DNA of 35,338 nucleotides from a virus: positions 1-35,338 of the IMG/VR virus record IMGVR_UViG_3300020205_002835. One strand, 5' to 3'. Below, piece after piece: positions 1,724-33,976 of this stretch (positions within the stretch are counted from its first letter, which is position 1; each line of letters opens with the position of its first letter). The notes beneath the pieces were generated by a model, which worked only from the letters and a program-made list of their open reading frames with translations, was not told the origin of the DNA and did no database searches. A program made the translations under genes and the position numbers.

Positions 1724-2115
1724 TGGCAGAACCAACTTACAGAGACTTTGACTTTTCTTTCAAGAGTCATCCGCTTTCTGCGGATATTGTTACTGTTACA
1801 GATGGAAATGCAATAAAGACTTCTCTAAAGAACCTTGTGCGGTTGATTCGCTACGATAAGCCATTTAATCCTGAGATTTCTTCCCCACTATATGATGCTC
1901 TTTTTGAGCCAATGGACCCTGGAACAGCAAGCCTGATGAAAACAGGTCTTACTTTTTATATTGAGGACTATGAACCAAGAATAGAGAATATAAAGATTGT
2001 CGTTACCCCTGTTCCTAAAGAGAATAAATACACCATAGACATGGCTTTCACTGTAAAGAAGACCAACAGCAGGGAAACTCTCCAATTATTCCTGCCGGTA
2101 GAGAGGCTGAAGTAA
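1723..2115 (+). CDS. 25: Baseplate wedge protein gp25 (GPW/gp25 family)
   Basis: This encodes 130 residues, close to T4 gp25 (132). In contractile tails gp25 sits at the inner baseplate, where it contacts the gp6 ring and helps start sheath assembly. Visible family features are the N-terminal Y-R-D-F-D-F-S-F, the central NAIKTSLKNLVRLI helix, and the highly conserved P-F-N-P-E-I-S-S-P-L-Y segment ending in LFEPMD at about residues 45-67. It starts at the ATG overlapping the preceding TAA, behind GAGAGG. Its stop directly abuts the gp6 ATG with no gap, so the two are almost certainly translated together. T4-like phages generally keep gp25 close to gp6 functionally, which supports the call. Confidence 0.93.
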   Translation: MAEPTYRDFDFSFKSHPLSADIVTVTDGNAIKTSLKNLVRLIRYDKPFNPEISSPLYDALFEPMDPGTASLMKTGLTFYIEDYEPRIENIKIVVTPVPKENKYTIDMAFTVKKTNSRETLQLFLPVERLK

Positions 2116-4092
2116 ATGGCGAACGAGAACTTCTTGGATATTACGGAACTTGATTTCGATAAAATCAAACAAAACTTCAAAAAGTATCTGCAATCCAAGC
2201 AGACATTTAATGGTTATGATTTTGAAGGCTCCTCCATGAATATTCTTATGGATATTCTTGCATATAATACTCACTATGCTGCTTTCTATGCCAGCATGGT
2301 GGGAAATGAAATGTTTCTTGATAGTGCAACCAAGCGGGATTCAATCGTATCCCATGCCAAACTGCTGAACTATATTCCACGATCCACAACATCAGCACGG
2401 GCAGTGGTCAATCTGCGCCGTTCCACTTCTGCCACAATCAATCGTGGTGACTATGCATTGGGTTCGTATGTTAATGATAATAATCAAACAATAACCACTG
2501 CCTTTACCTTTCTTGAAGACTATGAGTTTACACAGGTTGGTACGAATGATTGGCGGGTTGATGGAGCACATCTACATGAAGGTGCTCTACAGACCCTGAC
2601 CTATGTCTATGACAGCCGTATTCGGGAAAAGAAGTTCCTGATACCAACAAATGCCGATGTCGCCTCTATTCGTGTAAAGGTTCGTCAAAGTGCCTCTGCT
2701 GCGGACGATGACACCGAAACATGGTATCGTGCCACAGATTTTGCCCAAATAGGAGCCGAAGAGAAAATATTCTTTTTACAGGCAGCATATGATGGGCAGT
2801 ACGAGATATACTTTGGCGACGGCATATTAGGCAAGAGCCTTAATAATGGAAATATCGTCTATGTGGAATATCTACAGTCAATCGGAGATGCAGGAAACTA
2901 TTTCTCTTCCTTTGCATACTCCGGATCAACCACCACAACTGTTTCTGCCGCCATAGGAGGCTCACAGCCCGAGGATGTTACAGATATCCGCAAGAATGCC
3001 CCAAAGGCATTTATGGCTCAGAATAGAAGCGTTACTGCAAAGGATTATGAGAGTGCCATATTAGAAATATATCCACAGGCAGAGAGTGTAAAGGTATGGG
3101 GTGGCGAGGACAATCAACCCCCTCAATTTGGTAAAGTATTTCTCTCTATAAAACCTAATGGTGGACTTGTTATACCTGATTTAGACAAGAAGTTAATAAT
3201 AGAAAGTCTGAAACAAAAGGCTGTTGTCGGCATCATACCAGAAGTAATTGATCCCGAGTATATTCAAGCAATACTCATAGTTACAACAAACTATAATCCT
3301 ACAAAAACCTCGCTTTCCCGAAACGAGATTGCTGCTCTTCAGAGAGCCGCTATCATGCAATACTTTGATATTACCTTGGAGAAGTTTGATGTTTCTCTCT
3401 ATACCTCCAAGTTGAACAAGTTGTTGGATGAGGTTGATTCTTCTATTCTTGGAACACAAATCAAGACCTTGATTGAACAGCGCATACGACCAAGCACCCG
3501 CTATGCATCATTGGTTGATCTGAAGTTCTATAATCCTATATTTCATCCATACGATGGACACAAGGGTGGAGTTCGCTCGTCTTCATTTGAATACAAGAAT
3601 ACTGTTGGTGATGTAAAGTCTTGCTATATTGAAGACGATGGGTACGGAAAACTATCCATTGTTAATACCGATAGTGGAAAGACCATTGTTGTGGACAAAG
3701 CAGGAGAAGTTGATTATAATACAGGAAACATGACTATTTTTCAATTCAAGCCTGTGGGATATGGCGGAAACGACCATATCAAGATTCGTATACAGCCGCA
3801 ATCAAATGATATATTTGCAATGAAGAACAAAATCATAACGATAAGTGGCGAGAATATTCAAATTGATGCCATGACCAAGGATGAATCACAACGCCTCATG
3901 CGTGGAGCATCAAAGGATTTCACCGATTCGCTTGGAATAAGAGGCTTGCTTCCAGAAGGCCCCGTGATTGTTGCAAACGGAAATGCCGTACAGAGTCTGT
4001 CTCCTTTTGTTGTTCCTTTTATTCCTGCACAGCCTCCACTACCAAACAGCATTCCTATCACGCTTCCAACCTTGGGTAGAATCAACGGATAA
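2116..4092 (+). CDS. 6: Baseplate wedge subunit gp6
   Basis: This encodes 658 residues, essentially the length of T4 gp6 (660). Gp6 forms the inner ring that holds the baseplate wedges together and rearranges on contraction. The N-terminus (LDITELDFDKIKQNFKKYL, then EGSSMNILMDILAYNTHYAAFYASM) is the typical start of the family. Around residues 300-350 it has NRSVTAKDYESAIL and VWGGEDNQPPQFGKVFLSI, hallmarks of the gp6/gpJ-like baseplate fold. The ATG follows the gp25 stop directly with GAGAGG upstream. The gene ends in tandem stops, TAA then TAG, before the next ATG at 4096. Nothing looks truncated or odd. Confidence 0.95.
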   Translation: MANENFLDITELDFDKIKQNFKKYLQSKQTFNGYDFEGSSMNILMDILAYNTHYAAFYASMVGNEMFLDSATKRDSIVSHAKLLNYIPRSTTSARAVVNLRRSTSATINRGDYALGSYVNDNNQTITTAFTFLEDYEFTQVGTNDWRVDGAHLHEGALQTLTYVYDSRIREKKFLIPTNADVASIRVKVRQSASAADDDTETWYRATDFAQIGAEEKIFFLQAAYDGQYEIYFGDGILGKSLNNGNIVYVEYLQSIGDAGNYFSSFAYSGSTTTTVSAAIGGSQPEDVTDIRKNAPKAFMAQNRSVTAKDYESAILEIYPQAESVKVWGGEDNQPPQFGKVFLSIKPNGGLVIPDLDKKLIIESLKQKAVVGIIPEVIDPEYIQAILIVTTNYNPTKTSLSRNEIAALQRAAIMQYFDITLEKFDVSLYTSKLNKLLDEVDSSILGTQIKTLIEQRIRPSTRYASLVDLKFYNPIFHPYDGHKGGVRSSSFEYKNTVGDVKSCYIEDDGYGKLSIVNTDSGKTIVVDKAGEVDYNTGNMTIFQFKPVGYGGNDHIKIRIQPQSNDIFAMKNKIITISGENIQIDAMTKDESQRLMRGASKDFTDSLGIRGLLPEGPVIVANGNAVQSLSPFVVPFIPAQPPLPNSIPITLPTLGRING

Positions 4093-4095
4093 TAG

Positions 4096-5718
4096 ATGCC
4101 ATTTATTTCAAATACATCTACTCCTCTTGATCGCCCGATGGATACCACTCGAAGAAGTGGTTATTCAAAGATAATAAGACAAGCCGTTCCAAATTTTATA
4201 TTGGACGAATATCCATTATTTACTGATTTTCTTGAAGCATACTATGAGTGGTTGGATCAATACGGAAATCCTATAGAGTTTCTACAAAATGGTGGCAGAA
4301 ACTTTGATATTGATACCACCGCAGACAAGTTCTTGACTCATTTCAAGTCTACTTATCTTGATGGATTTCCAAAGAATCTTGCTATTCATAACGATAATAC
4401 TCTTGACGAGAGAACTCTTATAAAGAATATAAGGGAGTTCTACAAGATCAAGGGCAATGAGAAGTCCATACAACTCCTATACAAGATTATATCTGATTCA
4501 GACACCACTATTGAGTATCCCAGAGACTATATCTTTGTGTTGTCGTCAGGAAACTATAAAGATTATCACCAAATATATTTGCTGAAGGACTATACAAATA
4601 TTGCCAATGGGTTTGATATAACCACTCTTAAGGGATTACAGGCAAATCAGTATGAAGGGTTGGTTGTACTTGTTGGTTCATCAACCATTGATGACATACA
4701 CGAAATATCATATAATGGTAAAGAATACTATGTTCTTCGTGTTACAAATCCATCTGGAACCTTCACTGAATCTGATTTCAGCCCGATACAAATAGAACAA
4801 AACGGGGTAGTCTATAGTCACTATGCAGTTCCATCGGTATCAGGCTTGTCTATTGTTAATGGTGGATCAGGTTACAATGTTGGCGAGTTCTTCACGATTG
4901 GATCAACAGGAGCCGAGCATATCCGTGGTTTTCTGTCCTCAACCGATGAAAACGGAAAAATCACTAAAGTTCGGATATTCTCTAATCCTGTAAACTACGG
5001 GGGTTCAAGCACTTTGGTTATTGATTCTCCTTTTGGAACAGGAGGATCTTTTTCCGTTGAGCGATCCATACTTTCTGATCCAGTAGAAGAATACGAAAAT
5101 AATAAAAATCTGTTGAGCAGAGTTTCCCGCATACAGGACAGTTTTGAATACCAACAGTTTTCCTATGTGGTGAAATCAAAAAGATCACTGGAGGAATATA
5201 CCGAAGCAATCAAGCAAGTGGTACATCCAGCAGGATTTGTTGTATTTAATGCCCTTTACGATAATATCGGATCAATTCGACCATCCGAGTATATGACAAG
5301 AGTCAAGGCATACGACACAACAAGTTTAGGGGCATATGCTCAGTATAAGATGGAAAGCAGATCCGGGGCAGGATCCACTTTACCTTGGAACACTTCATAT
5401 TCAGGAGAACCCCCTCCTCTTTTCGAGCACAGATGGGGTTATGTGTTTTCTTCTTGGACAGGTAGAACAAGCGTTAATCCTAATGAGGTTGGTGCTGCGG
5501 GAGGAACTGCCACACAATATGGAAAGTTTATACCAAATGGTGTTGTGAATAACGCTGTGCTTCCAAATACTCTACAGGATCAATTCGTTGGAATAACACA
5601 TTGGATGACTTTTCCACATCCTGCTGGCAGGGGAGTAACAGCCATACCTCCAGGTACATCATTTGCTGCAATAAAATTGAATGATTTTCTACAACTTCCC
5701 GTGGTTAAATTAATCTAA
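4096..5718 (+). CDS. 7: gp7-like baseplate wedge protein, short form
   Basis: This encodes 540 residues, against 1032 for T4 gp7. The N-terminal 130 residues (VPNFILDEYPLFTDFLEAYY, then a FYKIKGNEKSIQLLYKII helix) match in order the C-terminal third of T4 gp7, which has DSNFEAFCEAYIQYL and FYSTKGIEASYKFLFKVL. A later stretch with S-Y-V-V-K-S, a helix, and VVHPAGFVVF also matches the gp7 end (VHPVGFGF). The protein thus looks like gp7's C-terminal region without the large N-terminal beta domains. Gp7 links the outer wedge to the core gp6-gp25-gp53 assembly. The glycine-rich NGGSGYNVGEFF near residue 255 is typical of phage beta-repeat modules. It starts three bases after the gp6 stop and has only a weak ribosome-binding site. 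Confidence 0.75.
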   Translation: MPFISNTSTPLDRPMDTTRRSGYSKIIRQAVPNFILDEYPLFTDFLEAYYEWLDQYGNPIEFLQNGGRNFDIDTTADKFLTHFKSTYLDGFPKNLAIHNDNTLDERTLIKNIREFYKIKGNEKSIQLLYKIISDSDTTIEYPRDYIFVLSSGNYKDYHQIYLLKDYTNIANGFDITTLKGLQANQYEGLVVLVGSSTIDDIHEISYNGKEYYVLRVTNPSGTFTESDFSPIQIEQNGVVYSHYAVPSVSGLSIVNGGSGYNVGEFFTIGSTGAEHIRGFLSSTDENGKITKVRIFSNPVNYGGSSTLVIDSPFGTGGSFSVERSILSDPVEEYENNKNLLSRVSRIQDSFEYQQFSYVVKSKRSLEEYTEAIKQVVHPAGFVVFNALYDNIGSIRPSEYMTRVKAYDTTSLGAYAQYKMESRSGAGSTLPWNTSYSGEPPPLFEHRWGYVFSSWTGRTSVNPNEVGAAGGTATQYGKFIPNGVVNNAVLPNTLQDQFVGITHWMTFPHPAGRGVTAIPPGTSFAAIKLNDFLQLPVVKLI

Positions 5719-28310: not shown

Positions 28311-28318
28311 TATACATA
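28311..28318 (+). promoter_or_regulatory. Candidate late promoter for the neck/packaging genes
   Basis: TATACATA matches seven of eight bases of the T4 late element TATAAATA. It lies in the 56-base gap between the adhesin block and gp13, about 30 bases before the gp13 ATG and ahead of a strong AGGGGGG ribosome-binding site (28338-28344). Position at a functional boundary makes it the most plausible promoter for genes 13-17. It is inferred, not proven. Confidence 0.4.
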
Positions 28319-28347: not shown

Positions 28348-29109
28348 ATGGCTCAACCATCTTCCAGACAGACACTAAAAGACTATTGCCTAAGACGACT
28401 TGGGCATCCTGTTATTAAAATTAATGTTGATGATGGTCAAGTTGAGGATCGCTTGGACGATGCCTTGCAGTTTTTTGCTGAATACCATTTTGACGGTGTG
28501 GAAAGAATGTACTTTCCCTATGCTGTGACCTCTCAGGATATTACCAACGGATATCTCAATACCGACAGTCTGAGTCCCAATATTATAACAATAAGCAGGG
28601 TTTTTCCGTTTAGCGAAACAGGAATGGCTGCCACAAACTTCTTCAGTGCAAAGTACCAAATGCACTTGCAAGACTACTTTGGATTGAGAAACGGCAACTT
28701 CAACCTGTCATACTATGATATTGCACAATCTTATATTTCACTCGTACAACAGTTTCTTGAGCCAGAAAAGGCATTCACCTTTAGCCGAGTGACGAACCGT
28801 TTGCGTTTGGAGACAAATTGGAAAGATGTATTACAACCAGGAAACTACCTGATGATTGAAGCCTATGTGGTTCTTAATGCTAATACTTATCCTGAGATTT
28901 ATAATGACCGTCTTCTAAAAGAATATCTATCAAATCTTATCAAGCGTCAATGGGGTCAAAATCTTATCAAGTTTGCCAATGTTGACCTTCCTGGTGGTAT
29001 TCACTTTGATGCCCAAAAAATACACGACGATGCACAGATTCAGATTGACAAGATTGAAGAACAAGTACAGCAGAAATACGAACTTCCACCCGAATTCCTA
29101 ATGGGATAA
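28348..29109 (+). CDS. 13: Neck protein gp13
   Basis: This encodes 253 residues (T4 gp13 is 309). The N-terminal LKDYCLRRLGHPVIKINVDD, followed by VEDRLDDALQFFAEYHFDGVE, closely parallels T4 gp13, which begins with a 'L-R-R-L-G-A-P' helix and ends this region in 'EYHFDG'. The helical C-terminus (QKIHDDAQIQIDKIEEQVQQ) is also typical. Gp13 joins gp14 to form the neck that seals the packaged head and receives the tail. The ATG has a strong G-rich Shine-Dalgarno. It is first in the neck/packaging group, with gp14 three bases downstream. Confidence 0.92.
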   Translation: MAQPSSRQTLKDYCLRRLGHPVIKINVDDGQVEDRLDDALQFFAEYHFDGVERMYFPYAVTSQDITNGYLNTDSLSPNIITISRVFPFSETGMAATNFFSAKYQMHLQDYFGLRNGNFNLSYYDIAQSYISLVQQFLEPEKAFTFSRVTNRLRLETNWKDVLQPGNYLMIEAYVVLNANTYPEIYNDRLLKEYLSNLIKRQWGQNLIKFANVDLPGGIHFDAQKIHDDAQIQIDKIEEQVQQKYELPPEFLMG

Positions 29110-30811: not shown

Positions 30812-31327
30812 ATGACTGAAGACCTACCGCAAGAGGAAAAGATTTCAAACAAGTTGGATATCACATTCACACCCGAGACTTCTATTAAGAGGGTGTCTCC
30901 TGATGTAGCCGCTATTGAAGGCGGAAAGCCTATTGACGATATTGACTTGAAAAAAGACTACATGACGGTTCGAAAGAACCTTCGTGAAATCATTATGACA
31001 GGCGCAGATGCCATAGATTCTGTTCTTACTGTGGCAAAGGAAAGTGATTCGCCCCGAGCCTATGAGGTTGTTGCACAACTCATAAAGGCTGTTGCCGATG
31101 TAAACAAAGATCTTTTGGAAATTCACAAAAAGGTAAAGGAAATCCAAGACGGAGAAGGCTCAACACAAAAAGCCACAAGCATCACAAATAACTCTATATT
31201 TGTTGGCAGTACCCGTGATCTACAGGCAATTGTTCGTGAACGATACAAAGAACTAATGGATGCCAAGATTGTTGATGTAGAAGTAATACAGAATGTAGAG
31301 GCTACCAATGACGGACAAACAGGATAA
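30812..31327 (+). CDS. 16: Small terminase subunit gp16
   Basis: This encodes 171 residues (T4 gp16 is 164). The conserved central helical hairpin runs from about residue 45 to 110: KKDYMTVRKNLREIIMTGAD, then a helix, SDSPRAYEVVAQLIKAVADV, and NKDLLEIHKKVKEI. It matches the T4 pattern of 'VR-x-N-L', 'P-R-A-Y-E-V' and 'L-L-x-x-H/Q-K-K'. In T4-like phages gp16 forms rings that regulate and load the large terminase on DNA. GGAG precedes the ATG. The gene overlaps the start of terL by 20 bases, a common arrangement for 16/17. Confidence 0.93.
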   Translation: MTEDLPQEEKISNKLDITFTPETSIKRVSPDVAAIEGGKPIDDIDLKKDYMTVRKNLREIIMTGADAIDSVLTVAKESDSPRAYEVVAQLIKAVADVNKDLLEIHKKVKEIQDGEGSTQKATSITNNSIFVGSTRDLQAIVRERYKELMDAKIVDVEVIQNVEATNDGQTG

Positions 31328-32192
31328 AGGCGCATACTTAGGCAATCCTAATCTAAAGGGGGCAAATGTTCCTGTTGAATTCAACGAGGAGCAAGTTGCC
31401 GAATATCTTCGCTGTTCCCAAGATCCTGTCTATTTCATCAAGAACTATGTTAAAATCGTCAACTTGAATGATGGTCTTGTGCCTTTTGAACTTTATGATT
31501 TTCAGGAGAAGTTTGTTAATGTAATTCATGCCAACCGTTTTACAATATCAAAGTTTCCCCGTCAGAGTGGAAAATCCACCACAGTTATTGCCTATATTCT
31601 TCATACGGTACTTTTCACCCCTAATCAGAATGTTGCGGTTCTTGCAAATAAGTTGGCTACTGCCCGAGAACTTCTACAACGCCTAAAGTTGGCTTACGAA
31701 TATCTTCCAAAGTGGATTCAGCAGGGTGTTCTGAGTTGGAACAAAGGTTCTATTGAGTTAGAGAACGGCTCAAAAATTCTTGCTGCTGCCACATCATCGT
31801 CTGCTGTGCGTGGTAACTCGTTTAACCTTATCCTGCTTGACGAGTTTGCCTATGTTCCCTTCAACATAGCCGACGAGTTCTTTTCCTCTGTATACCCTAC
31901 GATTTCATCAGGTAAAAACACTAAAGTCGTTATTGTGTCCACCCCCAAGGGCATGAATATGTACTACAAGTTATGGACTGATTCTGTAAACAAACGAAAT
32001 GATTATGTGCCTGTAGAGGTATTTTGGGACGAGGTTCCTGGGCGTGACGAAGCATGGAAGCAACAAACCATCAAGAACACCTCGGAAGAGCAGTTCCGCA
32101 CAGAATTCGAGTCGGTTGCATACCACACTCGTATCCGAATAGACGGAAAAGATACGACTATAGGAGAAATATACAGCAATCTCAAAGAATAG
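31308..32192 (+). CDS. 17: Large terminase gp17, ATPase half fused to N-intein (fractured gene)
   Basis: This encodes 294 residues. Residues 1-268 are the N-terminal ATPase domain of TerL, the motor that packages DNA. Walker A is PRQSGKST (84-91, like T4 SRQLGKTT), Walker B is LILLDE (174-179), and the coupling motif STPKG is at 211-215. The ATPase half ends at SEEQFRTEFE. In T4 that sequence continues directly as C-E-F-L-G, but here residues 269-294 are an N-terminal intein fragment and then TAG. The nuclease half is a separate gene at 32807-33976. Neither half is a working terminase alone. Protein trans-splicing would join residue 268 to Cys121 of the second product, giving a 537-residue TerL (T4 gp17 is 610). 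Confidence 0.93.
   Translation: MTDKQDKGAYLGNPNLKGANVPVEFNEEQVAEYLRCSQDPVYFIKNYVKIVNLNDGLVPFELYDFQEKFVNVIHANRFTISKFPRQSGKSTTVIAYILHTVLFTPNQNVAVLANKLATARELLQRLKLAYEYLPKWIQQGVLSWNKGSIELENGSKILAAATSSSAVRGNSFNLILLDEFAYVPFNIADEFFSSVYPTISSGKNTKVVIVSTPKGMNMYYKLWTDSVNKRNDYVPVEVFWDEVPGRDEAWKQQTIKNTSEEQFRTEFESVAYHTRIRIDGKDTTIGEIYSNLKE
32112..32189 (+). other. N-terminal fragment of an atypically split intein
   Basis: This encodes 26 residues from Ser1 (codon TCG at 32112) to the TAG. SVAYHTRIRI fits intein block A, with Thr at position 6, and TTIGEIYSNL follows, as in phage TerL inteins. The fragment ends after the first strands, well before block B, so the split is far upstream of the usual endonuclease-insertion position. 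The AceL-TerL split intein (25-residue N part) has the same design and the same insertion point in TerL. The nucleophile is Ser1, not the more common Cys1. Confidence 0.85.
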
Positions 32193-32227
32193 TCGAGTGT
32201 GACTTTGGTGGATGTATACATATCTAC
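32187..32227 (+). other. Relic copy of the uninterrupted TerL junction
   Basis: Immediately after the N-intein stop, the frame of the endonuclease gene reads E-C-D-F-G-G-C-I-H-I-Y (32195-32227). The functional C-extein begins C-D-F-V-G-S-V-H-T (from 33167) and is preceded after splicing by E. C, D, F, G and H match at the same spacing, with V/I and S/C similar. All three leading codons differ only at third positions (TGT/TGC, GAC/GAT, TTT/TTC). The bases just before, GAATAGTCGAG, equal the extein GAATTCGAG with two bases (AG) inserted. This is read as a leftover of an intein-less terL allele. Confidence 0.65.
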
Positions 32228-32806
32228 ATGATATACCTCTATTCTCTACAAGTCCAAGACAACATCAAATACATTGGATTGACCAAAAATCCAACAAGAC
32301 GAGAACAAGACCATCGGAGAAGACGAAAAACTACACATATCTTCTCTATCATAGAAACATTCGACGATGTTATGGCGGCATCAGATAGAGAAGCAAAACT
32401 AATAACCAAATACGGCACAGTTGTGGATGGATGGAACATTTCTCCAGGCGGCGATTACGAGGGTGCATCGGGATATTGCAGAAAGGGAATAGGCGGCGTG
32501 AAAAAAGGTTGCACCACATGGAACAAAGGCAAGAAGGGGTGTTTCTCTGAGGAAACTATCCAAAAGTTTTGTGATAAAAGAAAAGGCGTGATCCACAGTT
32601 CAAAATTAGACGAGATCACAGTTAGAGGAATACGACAGAGATTTGCAGAGTACACACCGACTGCCGATGTGGGCAACACCATGTCAAATGGTAAGAAAAT
32701 GACTAAGGAGCGGGAGTTTGCAAATATACTTCACGAAGAATATAACATTACGGACATCAATTTGTACAATATTGTTTGTAGAAAATCATGGAAGAATATA
32801 ACATAA
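32228..32806 (+). CDS. Free-standing GIY-YIG homing endonuclease
   Basis: This encodes 192 residues. The catalytic domain is at the N-terminus: YLY (3-5) and YIG (15-17) form the GIY-YIG pair. R25, H29, E55 and N70 line up with the I-TevI residues R27, H31, E75 and N90. A glycine/lysine-rich NUMOD3-like DNA-binding stretch follows (GGVKKGCTTWNKGKKG then FSEETIQKFCDKRKG, about 88-118). A C-terminal region (NITDINLYNIVCRKSWKNI) resembles the helix-turn-helix of Seg-type enzymes. The frame is open upstream to 32054, but that part overlaps terL out of frame and is not protein-like. ATG 32228 is therefore chosen, although no good Shine-Dalgarno precedes it. It ends directly before the C-intein ATG and probably cleaves terL alleles lacking the intein. 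Confidence 0.9.
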   Translation: MIYLYSLQVQDNIKYIGLTKNPTRREQDHRRRRKTTHIFSIIETFDDVMAASDREAKLITKYGTVVDGWNISPGGDYEGASGYCRKGIGGVKKGCTTWNKGKKGCFSEETIQKFCDKRKGVIHSSKLDEITVRGIRQRFAEYTPTADVGNTMSNGKKMTKEREFANILHEEYNITDINLYNIVCRKSWKNIT

Positions 32807-33166
32807 ATGCCTACAATATTTGAGACAATAGCACCCAATGCGAGAATGAACACAAAGAACTACAAAATCTTGTCTCCAGAAGGCGAGGTGGAGTTTCTCG
32901 GTGTGAATAGAATATCCCGCAATCAATATCTGTCTCTCAAGTTTTCCGATGGCACTACTCTCAAATGCTCCGAAGAACACCCGCTGATGACTATTGATGG
33001 CATCGTAAGGGCAAAGAATCTAACAAAACACGAAGAAGTCCAATCAAAAAGTGGTGGATGTTTTCTCACATCAAAACGATTGGTGAAACGGAAGATATAT
33101 CTCTATGACATAGTAGACTCGGGAGAAAAACACCTCTACTACTCAAATGGATTGGTGTCACACAAC
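32807..33166 (+). other. C-terminal fragment of the split TerL intein
   Basis: This covers residues 1-120 of the second terL product (107 if translation starts at residue 14). It contains intein block B (LKCSEEHPLMT, with the block-B His at 58), block F (IYLYDIVDSG, about 97-106) and block G (YYSNGLVSHN, 111-120), followed by Cys+1. Penultimate His119 and terminal Asn120 are the residues needed for Asn cyclisation. There is no internal endonuclease domain, so the intein is a mini-intein; the endonuclease is the separate gene upstream. Confidence 0.9.
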
Positions 33167-33976
33167 TGCGATTTCGTCGGCTCGGTGCATACCCTGATCT
33201 CCCCCCGTAAACTCAAGACTCTTACCTTTGTTAATCCAATTTATAAGAATGATGATGGATTCAAAGTCTACGAAAAACCTAAGAAAGATCATAATTATAT
33301 TATGATGGTGGACACTTCCCGTGGAACAGGCAATGATTACCATGCTTTCACGGTGATTGATATGACTACTGCCCCATACAAGGTGGTGGCAACTTTTAGA
33401 AATAATATTCTACCACCAGCCATGTTTCCCACAGCCATTATTGCGGCGGGTCGGCAGTTTAATGATGCTATGGTTTTGGTGGAACTAAATGATATTGGCG
33501 GTCAGGTGGCAGATATTATTCATGATGAGTTTGAATATGAAGGCTTACTAAATACTTCGGTCAAGGGACGCAAGGGACAGGTGTTGGACGGTGGTTTTAA
33601 TGCTCAAAACCAGCAGCGGGGTGTAAAAACCACCGAAGTAGTCAAGCGGGTGGGTTGCACCACTCTTAAGGGACTCATAGAACAAGAAAAATTGATAATT
33701 GAAGATTATGATTTAGTCAGAGAACTATTTTCATTCGTATCAAAAAAGAATTCATATGAAGCAGAAACAGGTCACCACGATGATTTGGTTATGACTCTGG
33801 TACTTTTTGCTTGGTTAACCACCCAATTGTACTTCAAGGACATTATTGGATCAAATCCATCTTTCGAGATGTATGCAAACCAAATGAAAACTTTGGAAGA
33901 AGAGATGTTTTTTGGCTTTATTGATGATGGAGTAACCGATCCTTTTGACGAAAATAGTGAATGGAAAATCACATAA
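32807..33976 (+). CDS. 17: C-intein fused to nuclease half of large terminase gp17 (fractured gene)
   Basis: This encodes 389 residues. Residues 1-120 are the C-terminal intein fragment; residues 121-389 are the TerL C-terminal nuclease domain. The extein begins CDFVGSVHTLIS, as T4 gp17 continues after EFE. The RNase H-like nuclease centre is visible: Asp169 in IMMVDTSRG, Glu226 in MVLVELND, and Asp325/326 in GHHDDLVM. After trans-splicing to the 268-residue ATPase half it gives a full headful-packaging terminase. Two starts are possible: ATG 32807 follows the endonuclease stop directly, with GGAAG about 12 bases upstream; ATG 32846 (residue 14, MNTKNYKILSP) would give a C-intein closer in length to AceL-TerL. 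Confidence 0.92.
   Translation: MPTIFETIAPNARMNTKNYKILSPEGEVEFLGVNRISRNQYLSLKFSDGTTLKCSEEHPLMTIDGIVRAKNLTKHEEVQSKSGGCFLTSKRLVKRKIYLYDIVDSGEKHLYYSNGLVSHNCDFVGSVHTLISPRKLKTLTFVNPIYKNDDGFKVYEKPKKDHNYIMMVDTSRGTGNDYHAFTVIDMTTAPYKVVATFRNNILPPAMFPTAIIAAGRQFNDAMVLVELNDIGGQVADIIHDEFEYEGLLNTSVKGRKGQVLDGGFNAQNQQRGVKTTEVVKRVGCTTLKGLIEQEKLIIEDYDLVRELFSFVSKKNSYEAETGHHDDLVMTLVLFAWLTTQLYFKDIIGSNPSFEMYANQMKTLEEEMFFGFIDDGVTDPFDENSEWKIT

Follow-up and report, generated by a model that had tools for sequence, protein, structure and literature searches.

The homing endonuclease I-TevI of the T4 td intron binds an operator that resembles its homing site and is located at its own late promoter, and in this way represses itself; similar putative sites accompany a late or middle promoter in the case of I-TevII and I-TevIII (PMC2988022). 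Among naturally split inteins, GOS-TerL (Ser1/Cys+1, with an N-terminal fragment, or N-intein, of 37 amino acids, 27 when trimmed) and AceL-TerL (Cys1, N-intein of 25 amino acids) both splice in vitro (PMC11766414). The IMG/VR record IMGVR_UViG_3300020205_002835 (the whole stretch of 35,338 nucleotides analyzed here, hereafter the window) comes from a T4-like phage in which gene 17 (terL), encoding the large terminase subunit TerL, is divided into two open reading frames (ORFs), 31308–32192 (294 amino acids) and 32807–33976 (389 amino acids), by a split intein with a homing endonuclease gene (HEG) between its halves. The comparative analysis described below indicates that the split intein and the HEG probably constitute a mobile element in which the HEG is autorepressed via a mimic of its homing site.

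A 17-bp sequence that mimics the insertion site in terL (positions -3 to +14), the putative HEG operator, occupies positions 32195–32211 (all features described here are on the plus strand) and is identical to the window's own site in 12 of the 17 positions. The sequence GAGTGTGACTTTGGTGG is found just past the stop codon of the N-intein; translated in one frame, it would read E C D F G, to be compared with E|C D F V at the extein junction. A scan of viral contigs with the C-terminal intein fragment (C-intein) of the window alone finds no relative, so that an alignment-based scan was needed; it identifies 403 viral loci with a C-intein relative and a junction, 80 of which were retrieved and supplemented with loci from HEG scans (labeled L001 and so on below). 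For each locus, the similarity to its own extein site was assessed with 400 shuffles, and p<=0.05 was taken as a match. A significant mimic is detected in 30 of the 34 loci in which a split TerL intein is combined with a separately encoded HEG of the window's family, GIY-YIG or HNH (free-HEG loci), vs none of the 47 loci with contiguous inteins, fused HEGs, split inteins without a HEG, or other HEGs; likewise, a search for a mimic copy in the no-HEG, contiguous, fused-HEG and DUF559-HEG classes finds none. The mimic is also absent where the HEG lacks a promoter of its own, namely in L141, in which the HEG start overlaps the N-intein stop, in L097-L101, in L116 and in Vibrio phage VP-1. The sequence-only reading of this locus recognized the split TerL, the class of the intein and the intervening HEG, all of which are borne out below, and overlooked the mimic and the adjacent late-promoter box (together 32195–32222).

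The pattern of conservation in the mimic is that of the protein-coding target. Among the 30 non-redundant cases, the edges of the mimic are sharp, with high identity from -3 to +14 and a drop outside, and the mismatches between +1 and +14 fall mostly in third codon positions (59/120, compared with 25/150 in the first and 6/150 in the second position), so that the mimic keeps what the target keeps. Individual loci follow their own targets: in L156, where the extein has Thr+1, the mimic reads GAAACT, and in L151 and L153, Ala is found at -1 in both the extein and the mimic. With respect to the N-intein, the mimic is not in a constant frame across the loci, and a function at the peptide level was therefore rejected. 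Over the 28 nucleotides that comprise the mimic and the promoter, the window is identical in 26 positions to L020, where the synonymous difference (pS) in the HEG is 0.60, and equally to L102 (pS 0.79). Thus, by comparison of these sequences, the mimic is conserved although synonymous sites are near saturation, and two differences in 28 nucleotides at such divergence are unlike a neutral remnant.

The mimic is tightly associated with a putative late promoter. The motif TATA[AC]ATA is found within 30 nucleotides of the mimic in 29 of the 30 loci, compared with about 0.01 expected per interval of this size; it starts 19–21 nucleotides past the mimic start in 22 loci and 29 nucleotides past it in two, and precedes the mimic in five loci with HNH HEGs. 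The HEG of the window has TATACATA (32215–32222) as its T4-late-promoter-like box. The motif occurs twice in the window, the second time at 28311–28318, 37 nucleotides before the gene start at 28348, where the same sequence may represent a late promoter of the phage. Late boxes of T4 start at -13 (PMC2988020); with the same offset, +1 would coincide with the A of the HEG AUG in 10 loci, including the window. A Shine-Dalgarno-like tetramer is found in none of the 17 loci with the short spacing and in 10 of the 11 with the long spacing, and its absence at short spacing is partly an effect of the layout because the respective region is the TATA box itself. Judging by the spacing, the HEG mRNA is probably leaderless and starts at the AUG. 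Single-sequence folds also indicate that, in a transcript reading through from terL, a hairpin could form around the HEG start codon (32208–32245), similar to the one described for translational control of the HEGs of T4 introns.

Taken together with the features of the HEG, these observations suggest the following mechanism. The two TerL halves would be made separately and joined by protein trans-splicing, and the GIY-YIG HEG would be transcribed from a T4-type late promoter of its own. The C-terminal domain of the endonuclease is predicted to recognize about 17 bp of the intein-less terL site (-3 to +14), and the N-terminal nuclease domain to cut the empty alleles, into which the element would then be copied. 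The same C-terminal domain would also bind the 17-bp mimic next to its own late promoter and turn off its own transcription. Autorepression appears to be the best interpretation of the mimic because the layout is kept by two catalytic families and is missing where the HEG lacks its own promoter. The mimic is found with both GIY-YIG and HNH HEGs, which have a common C-terminal region (in the window, 42% identical over 106 amino acids to the HNH HEG of L035), and this region is probably DNA-binding.

Several observations weigh against this interpretation. The window's own mimic is only 12/17 identical to the site and becomes significant (p 0.01) only in a search confined to the end of the N-intein; with an unrestricted shuffle over the whole intervening region, a test that is weak for many single loci, p = 0.30 and the best match is elsewhere. 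Given this dependence on the restricted search, the case rests on the family. The better fit of mimics to their own sites than to permuted partners (p = 4e-4), which speaks for the interpretation, comes from a statistic that ignores phylogeny, and TATACATA differs from the T4 consensus. Furthermore, the alignment of the HEG relatives contains no conserved cysteine pairs that could form a zinc finger as in I-TevI, with only Cys105 nearly invariant, and therefore the HEG is likened to I-TevI in its mode of action and is not called an I-TevI orthologue.

The alternative that survives best is that the mimic is a passive footprint, left when the HEG entered together with a piece of its target site, with no present role. 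There is a precedent for this view, in that a homing-site-like sequence adjacent to the td intron ORF was once discussed as a footprint (Loizos 1994, cited in PMC2988022), and in every locus the mimic indeed borders the HEG cassette on the left. A footprint does not account for the near-identity of the mimic and promoter at near-saturated synonymous divergence, the preservation of first and second codon positions, the distance to the late box that is fixed in most loci, or the presence of the mimic with two catalytic families, and this explanation seems improbable, although an entry footprint might have turned into an operator later. Even less likely, the mimic could be a second, weak site of cleavage or recombination that aids movement or loss of the element. 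In favor of this, the mimic repeats the extein start in direct orientation, with the repeats flanking the HEG and the C-intein. Recombination between them, however, would join the N-intein to the C-extein (in the window, in a different frame) and yield a dead TerL; moreover, both the tie to the late promoter (29/30) and the absence from the fused-HEG forms would be left unexplained. Finally, it is very hard to believe that the split terL is decayed or mis-assembled and TerL is not reconstituted by splicing, considering that the two halves have open frames and are conserved, with exact splice junctions, that the same organization recurs in L020 and in dozens of other contigs from independent samples, that the HEG and the intein, compared with L020, evolve under purifying selection, and that splicing in vitro is known for two inteins of this class, AceL-TerL and GOS-TerL (PMC11766414).

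The architecture of the split TerL is well defined. The first ORF consists of the N-extein, the ATPase half (31308–32111, 268 amino acids; Pfam Terminase_6N, E 2.7e-20; T4 gp17, E 3e-60), which ends with QFRTEFE, and the Ser1 N-intein SVAYHTRIRIDGKDTTIGEIYSNLKE with its stop codon (32112–32192, 26 amino acids plus TAG at 32190–32192), which is missing in the empty alleles and is 60% identical in L020. The second ORF starts with a C-intein of 120 amino acids (32807–33166) with the terminal SHN, followed by the C-extein, the nuclease half, which begins with Cys+1 in CDFVGS (33167–33976, 269 amino acids; Terminase_6C, E 5.7e-13). The coordinates of the two ORFs and the extein lengths of 268 and 269 residues are as claimed from the sequence alone, and the claim that the extein ends join exactly holds as well: on both sides, the alignments to the T4 gp17 structures extend to the junction, and uninterrupted terL genes are contiguous precisely at that point. 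Read-through of the TAG at 32190 was rejected because the frame closes again at TGA 32229 and L020 has a different stop codon. The sequence-only reading had also named an assembly artefact, affecting this TAG and the intervening DNA, as a refuting outcome; L020, a second contig from another dataset with the same organization and a diverged intein and HEG, is a strong argument against it.

Sequence and profile comparisons, together with the predicted fold, place the intein in the AceL/GOS-TerL class as a new member, in agreement with the initial assignment as an atypically split intein, which is now supported by profile, structural and comparative evidence. It is inserted in TerL with the N- and C-inteins in separate ORFs, its N-intein of 26 amino acids falls within the very short range of the class (about 25–37), and its nucleophiles are Ser1, the terminal His-Asn and Cys+1, consistent with the pairing of Ser1 or Cys1 with Cys+1 in this class. 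The C-intein is similar to the CatC structure (6dsl_B) in sequence (E 3.5e-17), by profile (E 5.6e-43) and in predicted fold, for which 6dsl is the top Foldseek match, consistent with the HINT fold; Cat (PDB 6dsl) is the consensus of GOS-TerL and AceL-TerL. The second ORF scores over the cut-off of NCBIfam intein_Cterm and under the curated cut-off of Pfam Intein_splicing (E 5.5e-4), and a search of the PDB with the 26-residue N-intein finds no match. From these features, we infer that the two TerL halves are ligated by protein trans-splicing.

The ORF between the TerL halves (32228–32806, 192 amino acids), proposed from the sequence alone to encode a homing endonuclease, is identified by profile as GIY-YIG (PF01541, E 1.2e-5; phrog_314, E 3.9e-11). 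Residues Y5, Y15, G17, R25, H29, E55 and N70 are invariant in 16 relatives, and the predicted fold shows a weak match to the GIY-YIG domain of UvrC (E 0.28, probability 0.89). A tblastn search of an isolate phage collection finds no match for this protein and a weak one for its relative from L022. Between the window and L020, the intein and the HEG are 60–69% identical, with a nonsynonymous divergence (dN) of 0.19 and a synonymous divergence (dS) of 1.2 in the HEG; judged against L020, both are under purifying selection.

Empty alleles are readily found. Uninterrupted terL, contiguous exactly at E|C, is present in 14 IMG/VR loci (L001-L007 and L009-L015) with 89–99% amino acid identity to the window in the N half and 81–99% in the C half. 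The nearest one, L001 (98.5% in the N part and 98.9% in the C part), differs from the window at 29 of the 1614 sites of terL, and seven of these differences, all in third codon positions, are located between -10 and +21 of the insertion (7/31 at the junction vs 22/1583 elsewhere; Fisher 5e-7; 1e-4 against permuted third-position changes). Four synonymous mismatches are found within 10 nucleotides on the left (32102–32111) and three within 21 nucleotides on the right (33167–33187), defining a putative co-conversion tract. This clustering suggests the trace expected of short co-conversion during recent homing, with synonymous escape mutations in L001, rather than conversion in the window lineage, being an alternative. 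The proposal that the endonuclease maintains the split arrangement is thus indirectly supported by the existence of an almost identical empty allele and by the concentration of mismatches at the junction.

Diverse forms of the intein occupy the same site. Contiguous mini-inteins are found in L104, L112 and L113, N-inteins fused to a GIY-YIG domain in L097-L099, L101 and VP-1, and split inteins with a free GIY-YIG or HNH HEG in the window, L020-L036, L102, L106, L110, L118, L120 and others; split inteins without a HEG are also present. In L116, a contiguous TerL-intein frame of 882 amino acids (2069–4717) spans a GIY-YIG HEG of 208 amino acids in another frame (2904–3530), an arrangement reminiscent of the hidden HNH endonuclease (PMC11855218). 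L058 (2010–6248) combines a contiguous intein at Walker A with a Ser1 split intein at the window's site that carries a DUF559-type HEG with a C-terminal nuclease domain and no site mimic. The split inteins of L043, L044, L046, L066, L067, L074-L080, L086-L088, L093 and L095 measure only 434–718 nucleotides from junction to junction, leaving little or no sequence between the halves; these are candidate new split inteins with short N-inteins, and many are Ser1/Cys+1. In VP-1 (L019, MH363700.1, 2834–6176), TerL contains two inteins, a contiguous one in Walker A and a second one at the window's site, with the N-intein fused to a GIY-YIG domain; the record is annotated only with 'terminase large subunit' and 'terminase like family protein'.

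The position of the mimic also bears on the origin of the split. Of the 30 loci, 23 have an N-intein stop codon that overlaps with the mimic, and in three more it overlaps with the late box; in the window, the stop codon is located just before the mimic. This arrangement suggests that acquisition of the module of mimic and late promoter split the intein. Under this scenario, which is tentative and has less than an even chance of being correct, an operator and a late promoter inserted behind the first helix would have terminated the N-intein, so that the HEG was no longer co-translated with TerL. If so, HEG autoregulation would be a route from contiguous inteins to naturally split ones, and the contiguous, fused-HEG, split-without-HEG and split-with-free-HEG forms at a single site would represent stages of this process, which offers a testable explanation for the location of the split in some natural inteins. 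More generally, HEG autorepression would be extended from T4 introns to split inteins, suggesting how a selfish nuclease can live in an essential late gene, with its own late promoter and the ability to turn itself down. The mimic also predicts the roughly 17 bp read by each of about 30 uncharacterized endonucleases, making their specificity directly testable, and the locus adds a Ser1/Cys+1 split intein with a short N-intein that could find use in protein labeling.

Compared with the described systems, the window intein shares with AceL-TerL and GOS-TerL the TerL host, the very short N-intein and the long C-intein of the same family, and with GOS-TerL also the Ser1/Cys+1 pair; it differs in sequence and in the length of the N-intein (26 amino acids vs 25 in AceL and 37 in GOS), and is accompanied by a HEG with a putative late promoter of its own and a mimic of the target site, the comparison with AceL- and GOS-TerL being at the level of proteins only. 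Split inteins in fractured genes with a HEG in between, along with a new Vsr-like endonuclease family, were reportedly described by Dassa and colleagues in 2009 (cited in PMC10448857); as far as can be judged from the title, those systems similarly have an endonuclease gene between the split-intein halves, and the window differs in that its HEG is a GIY-YIG one with a mimic. In VP-1, TerL likewise has an intein at this site, and a GIY-YIG domain separates its halves; the differences are the fusion of this domain to the N-intein, the lack of a mimic and the second intein at Walker A. No report of autorepression through a homing-site mimic in inteins was found in the open-access literature, which leaves out some key papers. 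A close parallel is with I-TevI, I-TevII and I-TevIII, in that a GIY-YIG or HNH HEG has a homing-site-like sequence at its own promoter: as in the I-TevI system, such a sequence precedes the HEG (30/34 free-HEG loci vs 0/47 others) and is located at its putative late promoter (29/30 mimics). The present system differs from I-TevI in that the host element is a split intein rather than an intron, the zinc finger is missing, the mRNA is predicted to be leaderless, and, in many split-intein loci, the mimic coincides with the stop codon of the N-intein.

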